Source of the DNA: Atrichornis clamosus
Taxonomy: Eukaryota > Chordata > Aves > Passeriformes > Menuridae
Length of the DNA: 64,000 bases
Assembly: GCA_013400975.1 (NCBI GenBank)
Contig: WBMZ01000387.1
Span: 1 to 64,000, forward strand
Direction of reading: 5' to 3'
Within the stretch, counting starts at the first letter, position 1. Each line of letters begins with the position of its first letter. The position numbers were made by a program, and so were the translations under genes. This document shows positions 1,772 to 55,186 of the stretch, piece by piece. The notes under the pieces are model-generated. The model was not told the origin of the DNA. It worked only from the letters and a program-made list of their open reading frames with translations, and searched no databases.

Positions 1772-2277
1772 TCATTCAACCCCCAAGAGCTGAGGCGCAC
1801 TGTCTGCAGAGGCCAGGATGTGATTCATGGGAGACGGCGCGTTGTGCATCTCCAGCAAGTCTTGGATGAAGCCCGAGGGCCTCTCGTGCTCGGAGCTACC
1901 CCGCGGTTCCTGGTCTTTTGCCACCTGTTTCTGCGCGCTCTTGGTGGGCTCTGCGAGGCAGGCGCCGCTCCTCTCCTCTCCGCAGGGGGAATCCATGACC
2001 ATGCCGGCCAGGGGCTCGTTCCGGCTCCCCACCAGGGATGTATGGCTACCGACGCCCCCCGCGGAGTCGCACTCGCTTTCGGAGATGGGGTTGGCGCCGC
2101 TGTGGCTGGACTCATTCTCACTGTCTTCTCCACACCTCGACTGCGTCTCCTCCTTGTCGCTCTCCTTCCCATGGTTTCGGGCATTTTTGACTTTCTGGTG
2201 GATACGCTGGTGACGGACCAGGCTGTGCTTCAGAGTGAAGGTCCGCTCGCAGGTTTGACACTTGTAAGGTCTCTCAC
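1772..2277 (-). CDS. RREB1: RREB1 terminal coding exon J (zinc finger 15, C terminus)
   Basis: Two bases plus 167 codons and a TGA at 1772-1774. The acceptor is AATTCTCTTCCAG. The first residues (GERPYKCQTCERTF, then HSLVRHQRIH) form the canonical TGERPYKC linker and finger 15, which with finger 14 makes an adjacent C-terminal pair. The rest is Ser/Glu-rich and probably disordered (DSENESSHSGANPISESE). The end SADSAPQLLGVE resembles the recalled human end ASQLVGME. The exon is CpG-rich, which produces long spurious ORFs on the opposite strand. Confidence 0.95.
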
Positions 2278-4762: not shown

Positions 4763-5509
4763 CTGTATGAGACCGCATATGTCGCGTCAGATCTTGCAGA
4801 GACCAGAAACGCTTGTTGCACACAGTACAGACTTTCTTTCTTTTGTCTGCTTTTGCAGTACTCTTAGCCCCATCAGTCTTTGGTTTTTTGTCATCACTGC
4901 TCTTCTCAGTGGACTTTCTCTCTGTGCCTTCCCCCTCAGAGATGCTTTCGCTCTCTTCATTCTCCTTTCCTGTTGCCTCACAGTCCACAGGAGACTCCAC
5001 TACCTTCAAGTCCAACGGAGACTCTTCCTGCTCAAGACCAGAGTCCTGCATCGAGGGAGCTCCTGCATCATCCTGAATGCTTTTGCTTTCATCCTCACTG
5101 CTCCTTTCATCCTTTCTGTCCTCATGAATGTGGGCCTTTTTGTGACGGCTAAGAGTGCCAGCAAACTTGAAGGTTTTGCCACAAATGTCACAGGCATGTT
5201 TCCTTTCAGTCTGAGAACTGCTGCCTGCACTCTGGTCACTCTCTGCCAGCTTGAAGTCCATTAATTTGCTGGCAAAATTGAGGTCAAGACTTTTGTTACT
5301 TACAGAATCTTCCTCAGGGCCCTCTTCATATCCATCCACTTTTTCTTCGGCATCCTCTTCTGCCAGAAGGGAGTCAGCCTTTTGCTCCTCCTTGGGGCCA
5401 CGCTCACTCTCTGGTAGCTCTGTCATTTCCTCTGACTGTTCCTTCTCGCAGTAGGTCAGGTTCAAGACTTTGTTTCCTGTAGCTAGTGTCTCTGCATCAG
5501 CCTGGCTGT
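4763..5509 (-). CDS. RREB1: RREB1 coding exon I (acidic region, zinc fingers 13 and 14)
   Basis: Two bases, 248 codons and one base (joined residues 1226-1473), phase 1 at both ends. The acceptor is GTTTCCTTGCAG and the donor is CATACAG|GTAAGA. It begins DSQADAETLATGNK (the Asp is completed by the last base of exon G). A strongly acidic, probably disordered segment follows (EEGPEEDSVSNKSLDLNFAS). Next come finger 13 (HACDICGKTFKFAGTLSRHK...), another acidic/Ser-rich stretch with a PLDLK motif (5004-5018), a Lys-rich segment (DKRKKVC), and finger 14 (VCTVCNKRFWSLQDL...HMRSH). Direct G-to-I splicing is required because the intervening exon is dead. Confidence 0.95.
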
Positions 5510-11500: not shown

Positions 11501-13539
11501 GAGGGAGACCACAAGTCCAAAGCTGTTGAATGTTTCTGACCCATAATTAAACATCACTTGGCAAAGGCAGTTCTAAACGCTAAGATGTGCTAAAAAGCGC
11601 ACGCGGTAACTAAAACTGTGCACACTGTTGGATCTGGGCTCCCTCCCTTTTGCTGACTAAAGCTGCTATTTGAAGACACAAAGCATTGACGGCAAAGCCA
11701 ATTTCAACAGCATCTATCCCAGTGCCTCCCAGAAGATGCTGCCAGCTCCACACCTCAGCTGCATCAATGTGTTCTTTTAGGGCTGTACCGCCAGACAGAT
11801 CCGGGAACTGATCTCATGACTGCCAGTCCCTCCCCTTGCCCTTTTAATTTTTTTGGGCAGCTGGGTCAGCTACAGCTGCAGGGATGAACAGTTGGGAACA
11901 GGTCGAGCCAGTACTGCCAATAAGTGCTTTGTGTTATCCAACCATGGCCCAAGGCTCTGTCTGCCAGGGGCAGGTCGAACCACTCTGACCAGCCCAGTGC
12001 CGGCTGCTGAGAACAATCTACCTTCCACCAAAGTCCTACCCATCCTACGTGCTGCACCAGCGCTCGCCCGAGCAGCTTTAGAAGTGCTTGCCTCCTCACC
12101 CCACCCAACAGCTGAGCTGTTTTAAGACCCCTCTGACTATAAGGAAAGTCTTCAACCGACTCAAGCAGGACACTTCAGTTTCATTCCGCTGTGAAAATTG
12201 TCAGAGGTGAGCACTTTCAGAGCCCTTTCTGCAGACTTTTGTTCTATGAGGGGATCATGTCATAACATGAGTCTTCCTCTCTCACACCGTAGCCATCTGT
12301 TGTCTGCACAGGCAGGATGAGCCCACGTGACACCCCAGATAGTGTGCTGCAGCCCTCTGAAGTTACAGGCTGTTAACATGGTAACAAGGCAACTTAGTCT
12401 CTTCATGATAGGCAAGATCAAATCATGTCGTAACAGGTCCCCAGCATGGCAGACTGCAATGCCAGACTGGTACTGAGACCTGTATTACCACATGTGAATC
12501 ACTGCAAGGCAACCTGCCCTATTAGAAGAAGAAGAAGAAAGGATGAGAGAGGCTAGCAAGGCAGCAAACTTTCCCAAACAAATCGGTGCATGGAGATGTA
12601 AAAGGAAAATCCTGTGCACACTGTGAGCAATCTGATCAGCAGCTACCCTGAGGTTGAGAGTAATAACTCATTTGTAATTTTAACTACCCTGATGCACAGA
12701 GCCAACTTCTTGCTGCTTTTAGGTTTGTTACCATCAATTCTCCCGTGAAACCAACTCAAGGTGACACAAAGTGACGCTGTCTGTACTGGAGGTGTGAATA
12801 ACTTACAGCAGCAGCTCCCTTGTGCAAGCAGTTTGCAGGCAAGGGACATGTACCACCATCTGCTGAGCTTCCTTCTTGCACCCATCCCATTTGGTCAGCA
12901 CATTAAACCCAGAGTGAGATGCTCACTCTTGGTTTTGTGTCAGCTTCTCCTTTCTGGCTAAATGCCCCTCACCTGCCTAAAATGAAGCCTTGCATGATCT
13001 GACAGTCAATCTCTTTCGCTACTCTCAAGACAGAGGGGACAATGTGATGGCAGGCAAGCTTCAATGGAGATTAATACAAGGTAAAACAATCCAAACCGTG
13101 CCTACGTGATGCTGAATATGGTACTGGTAGGAGGACTCAAAGCCATTGCTGACATCTCTCCAGGATCACTGGCTTGCCCTGCAGCAGCAGCAGTCAAATT
13201 AAAGCCAGACTGCATCAGCAGGTTCAGAAAGCAATCGGAGGGATTTGAAGACAGCAGCTCCATAAACAGGTAGTAAAGGGAGCGGGCAGGGATGTGCCCT
13301 CAAACAACCAACCCTAATGAAGCAGTTGCGGATGCTGATAGATCTTTAAGAGTAACAGCCTGGAGGAAGTGGCCAGGTCCCCATGCTCACACTAAATAGC
13401 ATATCCTACTGCTACCACTGGAGACAGCAGTACCACAGCTCTAACGTGGCAGGGCACTTCCCACATCCTTATGTCTGCAGCGTTCAGCCCGACAAAATAC
13501 AACTTGGGCTTGCTGTTCTCAACAGCCAGGAAAAAGTGC

Positions 13540-13694
13540 ATGTGCCACTGTGAGATCCAGTATCCTCTTCCTTAGGCTGGGGAATAAGCACATTTCTCCT
13601 CAGGCAGCAGCTGGCAACACCAGGTTTGTGCAAATTCTTCTAGATTTGGTTGAAAAGACACCACTACATTTTTGAGAGGGGAAGGGTTTCTGGT
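13540..13694 (-). pseudogene. RREB1: Relic of the RREB1 alternative zinc-finger exon (dead exon)
   Basis: Read on the minus strand after a surviving acceptor (TATTGTGTCAG), the phase-1 frame gives QKPFPSQKCSGVFSTKS. The human cassette exon, as I recall it, has QKPFPCQKCDAFFSTKS. A second frame then gives CCLRRNVLIPQPKEEDTGSH, matching human CSLRRNGLIPQSKESDVGSH. The two halves are separated by a net 10-nt deletion (41 nt where human has 51), which removes the finger's C-terminal half and leads to a TGA. The first zinc-binding Cys is Ser, and the position of the donor GT is GC. Length is 155, exactly 165 minus 10. The exon cannot add coding sequence without a frameshift. Exons G and I join in frame without it. 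Confidence 0.85.
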
Positions 13695-14863
13695 CTGACA
13701 CAATATAAAATGTATGCCCATCTGTCCTCCTTGTGTGTAGTAAGAAACTTTCTTGGTTTTCTTCCTTTTCCCCTGTTAGTGCTTGGTGGCCAACCACAAT
13801 ATCCTGACTGCAAGCTCCTCAACAGCAGGCTCTCTCTGGAAAGGTCTGTCACCTATGTGAATTTGACACAATTTCCATCAAAGCCACAGGGCATCTTTCC
13901 ACTGACTTCAGTGGAATCAAGGCCCATATGTTGAATAAGCAATCAATTACTTCCCCACAGACGAAAGCTTTTCATGTCTGTAATTCATTTAAATGACTAG
14001 AACAAGGGAAGGGACTGAGCACAGGAGAAGTTGAAAGGAAAGCCAGGATCATGAGGTGCAGTGAGGAGAGCAATCCTGCAAGACATCTTTGTGATGAAGA
14101 AAGAGATTGAGAGGATAGTTACTTGTAAAGGGAGATCAGCTCTTGTCACACCTCATACCCAAAACCTCTGAAAACACACACACACCATCCACCCCCTGCC
14201 ACAGCCAGCAGCCCCTTTGATACAATATCGTGGGTATCTCTCTCCTTTCATCTTCTGAAAGTTGGTTCTGTTCTAGTTAACATCTCAACCTGTACCAGGG
14301 ATTCCCCACATCTCACAGACGTCTCAGGACGGAATTTCTTTCTCTTAATTTTCTTCCAGTGTCAACACAACTGTTTAGTTGCATCATTGTACTGCTTTTT
14401 GTAGGCTTTCAAGCCACTTTCCTTTTCAGATGCCTGCTAAATCAACCATAAATTTATGGTTACAAATACCACCACTTTTTGCACTTCTGTCTGGCTTCAT
14501 TCACAATGCAAATACAAAACTTCAAAGTTCAGCAGAAATACTTTTGCTTCAAGATAGTCCAATTCCTTTCCAGATTTCTTTTCAAGCATGCAATGACAGG
14601 ATTATCTGAGGATTAATAACTTGAAACTCAACCTGCATCATAGGTCACAATTTTCTCATATTTTCAGCCTTTAAAACTTGCGTATCAATCAAATATTTGT
14701 CATATAGACCAATACTTGCAACAGATAAAATACTCTTCCTTCCACATGTCCTAGCTAGAGGTCTCAAAGCCCAAACAAAAATTCTTAACTCTGCAAACTC
14801 CAATCCTCCCACCCCAACTTGTAATGCTACTCCCAAATGGAAACCAGAATGATTTCCAAAAAT

Positions 14864-14962
14864 GCCACCTTTAAAGGCACAAAAAAAACCATTAAAAAAG
14901 CAGTTTTCTCTGTGCCACCTTTAAAGGCACAAAAAAAACCATTAAAAAAGCAGTTTTCTCTG
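14864..14962. repeat. 50-bp perfect tandem duplication
   Basis: Two adjacent copies of a 50-bp unit (14864-14913 and 14914-14962), each starting GCCACCTTTAAAGGCAC and ending AGCAGTTTTCTCTG, are identical over 49 bp. The identity implies a recent duplication or a collapse/expansion error. It sits about 1.2 kb upstream, in gene orientation, of the dead exon. Confidence 0.92.
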
Positions 14963-18877: not shown

Positions 18878-21620
18878 CTGTGTGAGTGAGCATGTGACGC
18901 TGCAGGGCATTTGCCCATGGAAAGACTTGAGGACAGTAAGGACAGGGAATATTTTGCAGGCAGTCTGAGTAAGCATTCCTCTTCCCTCTCAGCAGCTTAT
19001 CCTTGGCAGTTTCCTTCTCATCCTCATTCGTTCCATTTCTGCCACTTTCTTCCTTGAAATTGTCCGTGGACTGCAGAAATGGGCTAAATTTGTTAGTGTC
19101 TGTGGTAGCCAGCATCTTCTCTATGCTGGCAAACTCCCCACTTGACTCCAGATCCACACTACTGCTAGGTTTAGGCTTATTTTTCGTTCCTTTCTTTCTA
19201 CCTCTTTTCTTAGTCAACCCAGCATCAGCAATGGGAGACTGCTCTGGATCACATGCCTGAGACAGGTCACTGGGCAGGGTGGAGTCTCTCTGAACGGTGG
19301 TCACGATTGTCACTTTAGCTTTGGCATTCCCTGATTTGTCACACCCAGTGGAGCTGCTCACTGCCTTGGGACTGGCGTCTGCAGCCTCTGTTTTCAGCAA
19401 AGCATGAGCAGAAGACACAGATGAAATGATCTGTGCAATGGAAGCCAATGGCGGCAGCTCTTTAGTTACTGAAGGCTTTGGCAAGAGAGGTGGCGGTGGT
19501 GGCTTAGGCCTCAAGGGTCTCAGCAAGGCAGAATTGCCAGGGAGAGCCGGGGAAATGATCGGGACAGTCAAATGCAATGAACCTTTCAGTGGCTGGGGAT
19601 GTCTGACACCCCGGTTTGTCTCTGAGTTCCCATTGGCACCAAAAACCAAAGGACACTGCAGACAGTTATAGGCTTTATCACTGTTCCCAGAAGCAGCCAA
19701 CTCTTGATTCCTGGCTTCACATGGGGCATCATCTTTATCCTTCTTCAGGATTTTGGGGATGGACAGGTCAATAGGCTCCATGGAACAGTCGTAAAGGGAC
19801 AGGGGAGAAGAGCCAAACAGGTTCTCCTGCTTCACTTGCACAGCACTCAGGCTTTTACTCTTCTGAGAGAAATCCAACGGCTCATCAAAATCCATTGGGA
19901 AGTTGCCCACAGGTTCACGCTTGATGGAAACGTGAGACGTCGTTCCCAGCAAGAAGCCGTTTTGTGGCTCCAGGAAAGGTGTCATGGGCTTGTGGTCCAT
20001 ATAAGTGCTGTCCTCCAATAAAGAAGGGTCTGTCTGGCTTTCCTGGGCACCGCAGTCCACCATTAAGATGTAATTCTCAATCTCCTTTTCTTGCACATGC
20101 AAGTGCTGTTTGAGGATGTGGTGAATGCAATTCCTCTTAGCCGAAAAGGCTGTACCACACTCCTTGCACTCGAACGGCTTCTTCTTCTGGCAGCCGCTGT
20201 GCGTCCTCATGTGAATGCGGAGGGCCCGGTAGTGCTTCAGGTCCTCTCCACACAGCTTGCACACGGTGTCTGGGGAGCAGAAAGCATCCACCATCTCTGC
20301 GGCATTGCTGGTGACGTATTCAATGTTCTTCTCTATATCCTTCCTGGTCACTTTGAGGTGCTTCTTTCGCAGGTGTCTCTCACAATTGGCTTTCACTGTG
20401 AAAGGGTAGTGGCAGATTTTACAGATGTAAGGCCTCTCCCCGCTGTGTGTCCGCAGGTGCCGGATCAGCGCTGCCTTGTCAGCTGCGATGTAGTCACAGA
20501 TGTTGCACTGATACGGGGAAATACCTAAGTGAGAACGGATGTGAGCTCTCAGGACACCAGAGAAGGCAAACACCTGGTCACAGAAACGACAGGGGTACAA
20601 AACTTTTCTCATGGCTGGGGTCTTCTTGTTCGCTGCCCCTGCGATGATGGCTTTGAGGTCTCCTTCTGTGACTTCTTGCTTGATCTTGGCTTCCATACTC
20701 AGAGGCAGGAGAGCTTCAATTATGCTGTCCTGCTCCAGTTGTGTCTTCATCTCATGCTGAGTTAAAGGCTCCACTTTGGGTTGGAGGAGCAACTGTGACG
20801 AAGGACTTGATTTGGCTCCTGCTTGGGGGAGATGAGGGTTGGAGGAGGACTCCACTGAGTTCTTGATCAGCCTCAGAGGGGGAGGTGGGAGGCTTGGGCT
20901 GATGCAGCCAGGCGAGGCTTGCTGGGCACTGATAAGAGGAGGAGGTGTAGAGGTTGCGACAACTGTTCGGGGCGTTACCAAAGGCTTTGGCTTCAGTGGT
21001 GGCATATGCTTGAAAATGGACTGCACAGGGACAGAAGGTGCCTTAGAAAGTGGAGGAAGACTGATTTGAGGAGGAGCAGAAGAAGCCATCTTCAAGATCT
21101 GCTGAATGTCTGCCAGCTCAATGGCAGACTCATTGGAGATGGGTTTCACCACAATACTGCTGTCAGGCTGGATAATAAAACCCTTCTGGAAAGGCTGCAG
21201 TGAGAGAAGCTTTATGTTTTCTTTTGTAGGGGGAAGGACTGAAAATGATCCTCCCATGGAGGCAGCTTCCAGAGGAGAGAGGCTGAGCAGACTGGTGCTG
21301 CCAGGTTCCTGAGGTAGGTTACTCTTCAGTGCTCTGAGCCGCATTTCTTGGACCTCATCTTGTGTATTGTCCTCCTGCTTGACAGGCTTGATGTCTTTGG
21401 TGTACTGTAGGCCCAAGGATGCCATGAAGGCTTTCTGGTCTGGATTCTCACTGGCTGGAGTCGTGGACTGTGGCTTGTGCTTGTCTTTTCCCTGATCCAC
21501 CACGTGAGTTTCTGTGTGCAGCTTCAGTGCCGAAAGCATGGGGAATGCCTTGTTACACATCTCGCAAATAAATCGATGGAAGTCACTGATGCACCTTCGC
21601 AGATTTGTTTCACACCAGAC
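18878..21620 (-). CDS. RREB1: RREB1 large coding exon G (fingers 6-12, repression and SUMO motifs)
   Basis: 914 codons plus one base (joined residues 311-1224; residue 1225 split). The acceptor is CATGTCTTGCAG and the donor is ACACAG|GTAAGA. Order: finger 6 ([10 protein letters not shown]...HTETH); a long Ser/Pro-rich stretch with [19 protein letters not shown]; fingers 7-11 at about 20090-20605, starting [12 protein letters not shown]; a linker with PLDFS and PIDLS (19761-19775), CtBP-type motifs; a proline-rich region ([13 protein letters not shown]); [10 protein letters not shown], a basic AT-hook-like stretch; the conserved [20 protein letters not shown]; and finger 12 ([10 protein letters not shown]...HMLTH). 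Several psi-K-x-E sites (VKQE twice, IKQE, IKRE, LKTE) suggest SUMOylation. The apparent Met at 21635 lies in the intron and is not a start. Confidence 0.96.
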
Positions 21621-54789: not shown

Positions 54790-55186
54790 CTGCTGCTGCA
54801 GGACAGACCTACACAAGAAGGAGCTTTACAGAATAGACAGGTACCTATGAGATGCAAAAAACTTTTAATATCAGGATCTTCCATGCATGAATTTAGGTCC
54901 TTCTTAGCGCAATCAGTAAATACTTGATGATGCCCAATGAGCAAAAAGTCAAAAGTAGTACACAAGTACACAAGTAGTCCTTCAGCAAGCANCTGCTGCT
55001 GCAGGACAGACCTACACAAGAAGGAGCTTTACAGAATAGACAGGTACCTATGAGATGCAAAAAACTTTTAATATCAGGATCTTCCATGCATGAATTTAGG
55101 TCCTTCTTAGCGCAATCAGTAAATACTTGATGATGCCCAATGAGCAAAAACTCAAAGAAACCACACAAGTAGTCCTTCAGCAAGCA
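54790..55186. repeat. ~200-bp direct duplication flanking a single N
   Basis: Copy 1 (54790-54991) and copy 2 (54993-55186) both begin CTGCTGCTGCAGGACAG and end TCCTTCAGCAAGCA. They are essentially identical for about 155 bp and differ only in a short stretch near the end, where copy 1 has an extra ACACAAGT-like unit. The one N at 54992 lies exactly between them. This is the signature of two overlapping contig ends that were joined without merging; a true duplication is less likely. Confidence 0.9.

Follow-up and report, generated by a model that had tools for sequence, protein, structure and literature searches.

Has the songbird Atrichornis clamosus lost the optional exon that in other vertebrates gives RREB1 a 55-residue zinc-finger cassette, and is a 155-bp stretch in an intron of its RREB1 gene what remains of that exon? 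An initial annotation had proposed both on the strength of the DNA letters and of a pair of human isoforms that differ by about 55 residues. The DNA analysed here (the window) is positions 1 to 64,000 of contig WBMZ01000387.1 of this species.

The RREB1 gene in the window

The minus strand of the window carries a large part of the RREB1 gene of an oscine passerine, and the features needed first are the following (a slash marks an exon-intron junction here and below):

18878..21620, minus strand: RREB1 giant exon G, which ends in ...HMLTHT plus the G of a split codon and has the donor CAG/GTAAGA
13540..13694, minus strand: decayed cassette exon H, 155 nt (ancestral exon 165 nt, 55 codons, phase 1-1)
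4763..5509, minus strand: RREB1 exon I, 747 nt, phase 1-1, which takes G directly (HT-D-SQADAET)
1772..2277, minus strand: RREB1 last coding exon J, with the stop, in the spliced open reading frame

When G, I and J are spliced in phase they give an open C-terminal part of 1331 residues, which shares 95.9-97.1% of its residues with RREB1 of the oscine birds sampled. In a tree built with 34 relatives it groups as an oscine; its sister group there consists of the tits, warblers, chats, rockjumper and sparrow-like birds that were sampled, and a manakin falls outside. Further RREB1 finger matches lie upstream at about 23.4, 36.9 and 56.6 kb. The G-I intron is 13.4 kb long and contains the fossil exon at 13694-13540.

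Two repeats were also seen in the window. One is a perfect 50-bp tandem duplication in the G-I intron (14863-14962, two copies, 100% identical), and the other is a 179-bp direct repeat (54790-54968 and 54993-55171, 97% identical) whose copies flank the only N of the window (54992) and which has the look of a scar left by an assembly gap, not of a biological feature.

Identity of the fossil exon

The spliced protein found 657 proteins at E <= 1e-3 in a homology search, the best 120 of which were examined, and the cassette used for comparison was taken from the RREB1 proteins among them that have 55-residue inserts exactly at the G-I joint (for example those of turtle, lizards, frog, marsupials and kiwi). 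The cassette that the initial annotation assumed is real: 97 cassettes were parsed by pattern from 225 proteins, 58 of them 55 residues and 39 of them 54 residues long. In a frameshift-aware alignment the fossil matches this insert from its second to its last residue, with a score of 155 versus a mean of 23 (sd 4.3, maximum 41) for 300 dinucleotide shuffles. The same site is the best of 852 tiles from both strands of the window, the next best (score 90) being the living RREB1 fingers, and tblastn within the window places the turtle and kiwi cassettes there with E = 6.9e-12 and 4.2e-11, respectively. Chance is excluded as the source of this match.

The details of the site agree with the same identification. 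The fossil is flanked by the giant exon and exon I on the strand of RREB1, its start at 13694 is preceded by ...TATATTGTGTCAG and is entered by G/AC after the split codon, its end at 13540 is followed by GC, and its 155 nt are the 165-nt exon minus 10 nt. Translated in phase 1 it gives DQKPFPSQKCSGVFSTKS and meets a TGA, and its second frame gives LHKPGVASCCLRRNVLIPQPKEEDTGSHSGT, which includes the cassette-specific tail LRRN.LIPQ.KE. We are therefore nearly certain that 13540-13694 is a fossil of the optional RREB1 zinc-finger exon that encodes the 55-residue cassette of other vertebrates. The initial annotation had the coordinates of this stretch exactly right; its match in the second frame is real, but it had quoted that frame only from LRRN, and the match extends eight to ten residues farther back, from KPGVASCC.

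Damage to the zinc finger and the reading frame

Comparison with live cassettes locates the following features:

13675..13677, minus strand: codon of the first zinc ligand, now TCT for Ser in place of the Cys that 133 of 133 STKSNCERH proteins have
13628..13641, minus strand: 14 nt versus 24 nt in the live exon (NCERHFLR in kiwi), a net 10-nt deletion by which the first zinc His is gone and the frame shifted
13622..13624, minus strand: codon of the second zinc-ligand His, now CCT for Pro; 133 of 133 STKSNCERH proteins have the His
13600..13602, minus strand: TGA in the entry frame, at exon nt 93, about 60 nt before the old exon end

All 133 of the proteins with STKSNCERH (among 234, and ranging from sharks to mammals, with kiwi as the one named bird) keep the C2H2 ligands, a count that is informative only for the other three ligands because STKSNCERH itself contains the first His. 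In the fossil three of the four zinc ligands (Cys1, His1 and His2) are gone, so that no functional C2H2 finger is encoded, and the entry-phase frame is shifted and then ends in the TGA. The change of a zinc Cys to Ser had been read correctly from the start. The net 10-nt deletion and the loss of His1 also stand, but the earlier statement that this deletion removed the other half of the finger went too far, as the second His codon is present, as Pro; this substitution had been overlooked because it lies ahead of LRRN, where the quoted part of the second frame began. The TGA had likewise been listed as damage in its own right, and it is there in the entry frame, but as a consequence of the upstream frameshift: neither half of the fossil has a stop in its own ancestral frame, and therefore there was no separate nonsense mutation. 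The decay is incomplete, because the ancestral frames hold no nonsense substitution and 33 of the 47 aligned fossil residues are still those of kiwi (13 differ from both kiwi and turtle).

No Pfam family matched the fossil's first frame at E <= 1, the Pfam zf-C2H2 model aligns to two live cassettes below its curated cut-off, and a search of solved structures with the first frame of the fossil gave 4 weak matches at E <= 10, all to generic zinc-finger proteins (PRDM9 twice, HIC2 and Gfi-1).

Splice sites of the fossil

Splice sites were scored with approximate frequency matrices, and the two remnants at the borders of the fossil are as follows:

13695..13714, minus strand: residual 3' splice site, TACATTTTATATTGTGTCAG/ACC
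13538..13542, minus strand: dead donor, exon end CAT and intron GCACTT

By these approximate matrices the fossil acceptor scores 7.2 (95th percentile of the AG sites of the window) versus 10.0-12.2 for live acceptors (98.7-99.7 for those of G, I and J), and the fossil donor scores -4.3 versus 11.2 for the donors of G and I. The acceptor is thus moderate and the donor very poor. Its GC stands at the 82nd percentile among the window's 3348 GC dinucleotides, which makes it poor but not the worst of its kind, and some weak use of this GC donor is conceivable. We infer that the ancestral donor was ACAG/GT, because the two closest of nine unspliced exon open reading frames (below) read ...DSTG. The GC at the junction had been noted before, but this understated the damage, as in CAT/GCACTT the last exon base is not G either and positions +4/+5 depart from the consensus.

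The live cassette across vertebrates

How well is this exon kept where it is alive? A search with the kiwi cassette gave 179 candidates, 178 of them at E <= 1e-3, and the taxa read from 120 of these 178 include sharks, bichir, teleosts, frogs, lizards, snakes, turtle, marsupials and placentals. Kiwi is the only named bird among these 120; 8 of the 120 have no species name, and all 8 are at least as far from kiwi as turtle is. When non-bird species were compared with turtle, conservation was higher in the cassette than over the remainder of the protein in 6 of 6 (shark 80% versus 57%, Tasmanian devil 93% versus 75%). A search for short open reading frames with an alignment of the kiwi, turtle and fossil sequences gave 9 candidates, all with an intact finger; by their sequences they look mammal, amphibian and fish, and no avian copy is recognisable among the 9.

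Isoform X1 of Crocodylus porosus (P0056) joins G to I without the cassette, and there is no named crocodilian among the 120 cassette proteins listed of 178. A parallel, independent loss of the cassette in the crocodile is possible on these protein data.

Probable extent of the loss among birds

Among the 120 proteins listed of the 657, 58 are named bird proteins (46 species, counted by name): G runs straight into I in 53, the kiwi protein contains the cassette, and four have no visible joint; the protein database is clustered, so members may hide behind a representative, and an isoform missing from it does not equal an exon missing from DNA. Several bird annotations are projected from other species. 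Isoforms named X1 without the cassette are found in Cyanistes, Manacus, two Agelaius, Camarhynchus and Cuculus. The direct G-I joint of 53 of the 58 listed bird proteins makes it probable that the loss extends beyond A. clamosus, although the DNA evidence is from one bird and the others are represented by proteins only; perhaps it extends to all neognaths, with the same protein-only evidence outside A. clamosus.

Permanent loss in the A. clamosus lineage itself, which the initial annotation had proposed, appears well supported by four kinds of damage (to the Cys codon, by the frameshifting deletion, to the His codon and to the donor). That proposal needs amending in two respects: the loss is probably not confined to this lineage, and two finger isoforms rather than one are concerned (below).

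Alternative explanations

If the fossil is not simply dead, what else could it be? It might serve as a poison exon, in which the surviving acceptor is used with a cryptic donor to give a frameshifted, stop-containing insert that would lower RREB1 mRNA through nonsense-mediated decay. Such inclusion is formally conceivable because the acceptor, retained at the 95th percentile, is still fair, and the entry frame reaches its TGA 93 nt into the exon. The original donor is very poor, however, and among the 27 GT sites no more than 400 nt away the best one reaches 4.8 (92nd percentile of GTs, giving a 304-nt exon) versus 11.2 for the donors of G and I, and we consider a poison exon very improbable. 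A 33-nt remnant micro-exon (13694-13662, donor GTG/GTGTCT) would keep phase 1-1, end ahead of the stop and insert the 11 residues (D)QKPFPSQKCS, without a finger; we can hardly credit it, as its donor scores 2.2, just the 76th percentile of the window's GTs, and an insert of this kind is absent from all 53 bird proteins with a visible G-I joint.

Two further explanations question the fossil itself. The sequence comes from a single assembly with an assembly-like scar elsewhere in the window (the N at 54992), and sequencing or assembly error in a live exon might be suspected, but four separate kinds of damage, the 13 residues unlike both kiwi and turtle and the 53 of 58 listed bird proteins that likewise join G to I make error close to untenable. 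C2H2 fingers are common and alike, and other RREB1 fingers in the window score up to 90, so the stretch might have been copied from another RREB1 finger or a ZNF gene; the exon-specific tail (GVASC.LRRN.LIPQ.KE.D.GSH) nevertheless has no match as good anywhere else in the window, and the position, strand, phase and length of the fossil fit the original exon exactly, which leaves a copied finger with next to no credibility.

Isoforms and consequences of the loss

Mammalian models use exon H in two ways, as G-H-I-J and as G-H-J, in which H is joined to J (DST-GERPYKC). The latter is seen in four mammal isoforms (P0122, P0128, P0148 and P0164, 1459-1485 residues, tails read) that join the cassette to J and skip I, and the gorilla G-H-J protein has 1473 residues and 159.0 kDa. 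Because the cassette is also joined directly to exon J in mammals, two finger isoforms are lost with the exon and not one, and A. clamosus probably makes only RREB1 without the H finger.

What might those isoforms do? In glycerol-gradient fractions CTBP1 was predominantly with a human RREB1 isoform of 159-kDa size, as described in the excerpted text of PMC7495420, and by its size the gorilla G-H-J protein would correspond to that CTBP1-associated isoform. In mouse, the nervous-system-enriched V7 transcript omits zinc-finger exon 12, and the authors state that finger differences might alter DNA or partner binding (excerpts of PMC10780896). Mouse exon 12 is probably this cassette, judging from its description there (a one-finger exon absent from V7) rather than from sequence comparison. 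As to this finger, the C termini made by A. clamosus would then be equivalent to that of mouse V7 and, judged by size, to that of the human 181-kDa form.

Since a songbird, and perhaps a whole bird clade, has naturally lost this finger and no other part, it offers a clean comparative experiment on what the finger isoforms do. The loss carries moderate weight: the exon is ancient, it supplies one zinc finger to an essential factor, and it is broken in A. clamosus at least and probably in many other birds.

Kiwi and a possible order of events

Did the exon lose its importance before it broke? Kiwi and turtle differ about equally in the cassette (89% identity) and in the rest of the protein (88%). 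At strictly conserved columns, the one predicted kiwi protein is changed at 6 of 44 in the cassette versus 15 of 825 elsewhere (P = 0.0004), and turtle, at 1 of 44 versus 10 of 825 (P = 0.44), has no such excess. Changes assigned to the kiwi versus the turtle lineage number 6:0 in the cassette and 50:35 outside it (where 102 sites were unpolarised), a difference that is not significant (P = 0.08) and again depends on one predicted kiwi protein. The kiwi excess fits a relaxation of constraint before breakage.

The order of events may then have been that constraint weakened first, as kiwi suggests, and that splicing and the reading frame broke later; once the finger isoforms no longer mattered in the bird line, nothing would have maintained the exon. 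Leaving it out would always have spared the remainder of the protein, and the gene survived, because the exon length is a multiple of three (165 nt), as had been argued from the outset, and G, H and I meet in phase 1 (G ends and I begins in it). Turtle (intact and conserved), kiwi (intact and fast-changing) and songbird (broken) would form a possible series of stages in the death of an exon. A wider scenario is plausible, although we stop short of favouring it. An exon kept since the jawed-vertebrate ancestor would have been abandoned in birds, with constraint relaxed before the palaeognath-neognath split, the kiwi copy intact but fast-changing and the exon lost by all neognaths; both finger isoforms would be gone, including the counterpart of the 159-kDa form found mainly with CTBP1 in human cells, and the co-repressor wiring of RREB1 would thus differ between birds and other vertebrates.

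Comparison with known systems

The closest comparison is with the mouse RREB1 cassette exon (excerpts of PMC10780896). The gene is common to both cases, and the fossil agrees with the mammalian cassette in position, length, phase and sequence, but mouse exon 12 is live and alternatively used, whereas the bird exon is broken, which resembles a permanent V7-type C terminus. Lineage-specific exon loss is a known phenomenon, an example being exon 3 of TNNI3, which moles and shrews have lost or inactivated (excerpts of PMC12992808). In that case and in RREB1 the exon is gone and the gene persists; H differs in that it was optional, encodes one zinc finger and has left remains that are still readable. 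MOXD2 is a gene inactivated in birds (excerpts of PMC4830563) and shares with H the inactivation of coding sequence in a bird line, but in RREB1 only one cassette is affected and the host gene is intact. The present case is an ordinary, well-preserved exon loss of a known kind and no new system. Literature searches on RREB1, exon and gene loss, birds and cassette exons gave, among the matches listed, no title or abstract opening on this loss, which is no proof of absence, and in the excerpted text of a cardinal genome paper RREB1 appears only as a predicted binding factor.

One passerine RREB1 model departs from the usual G-I joint in another way. P0061 (Agelaius phoeniceus, 1458 residues) omits the 3' part of G (...HPQPLK/ESQADAE), which removes the last G finger, and P0059 and P0060 are of similar length and also lack the usual joint; a form of the P0061 type is possibly a passerine isoform.
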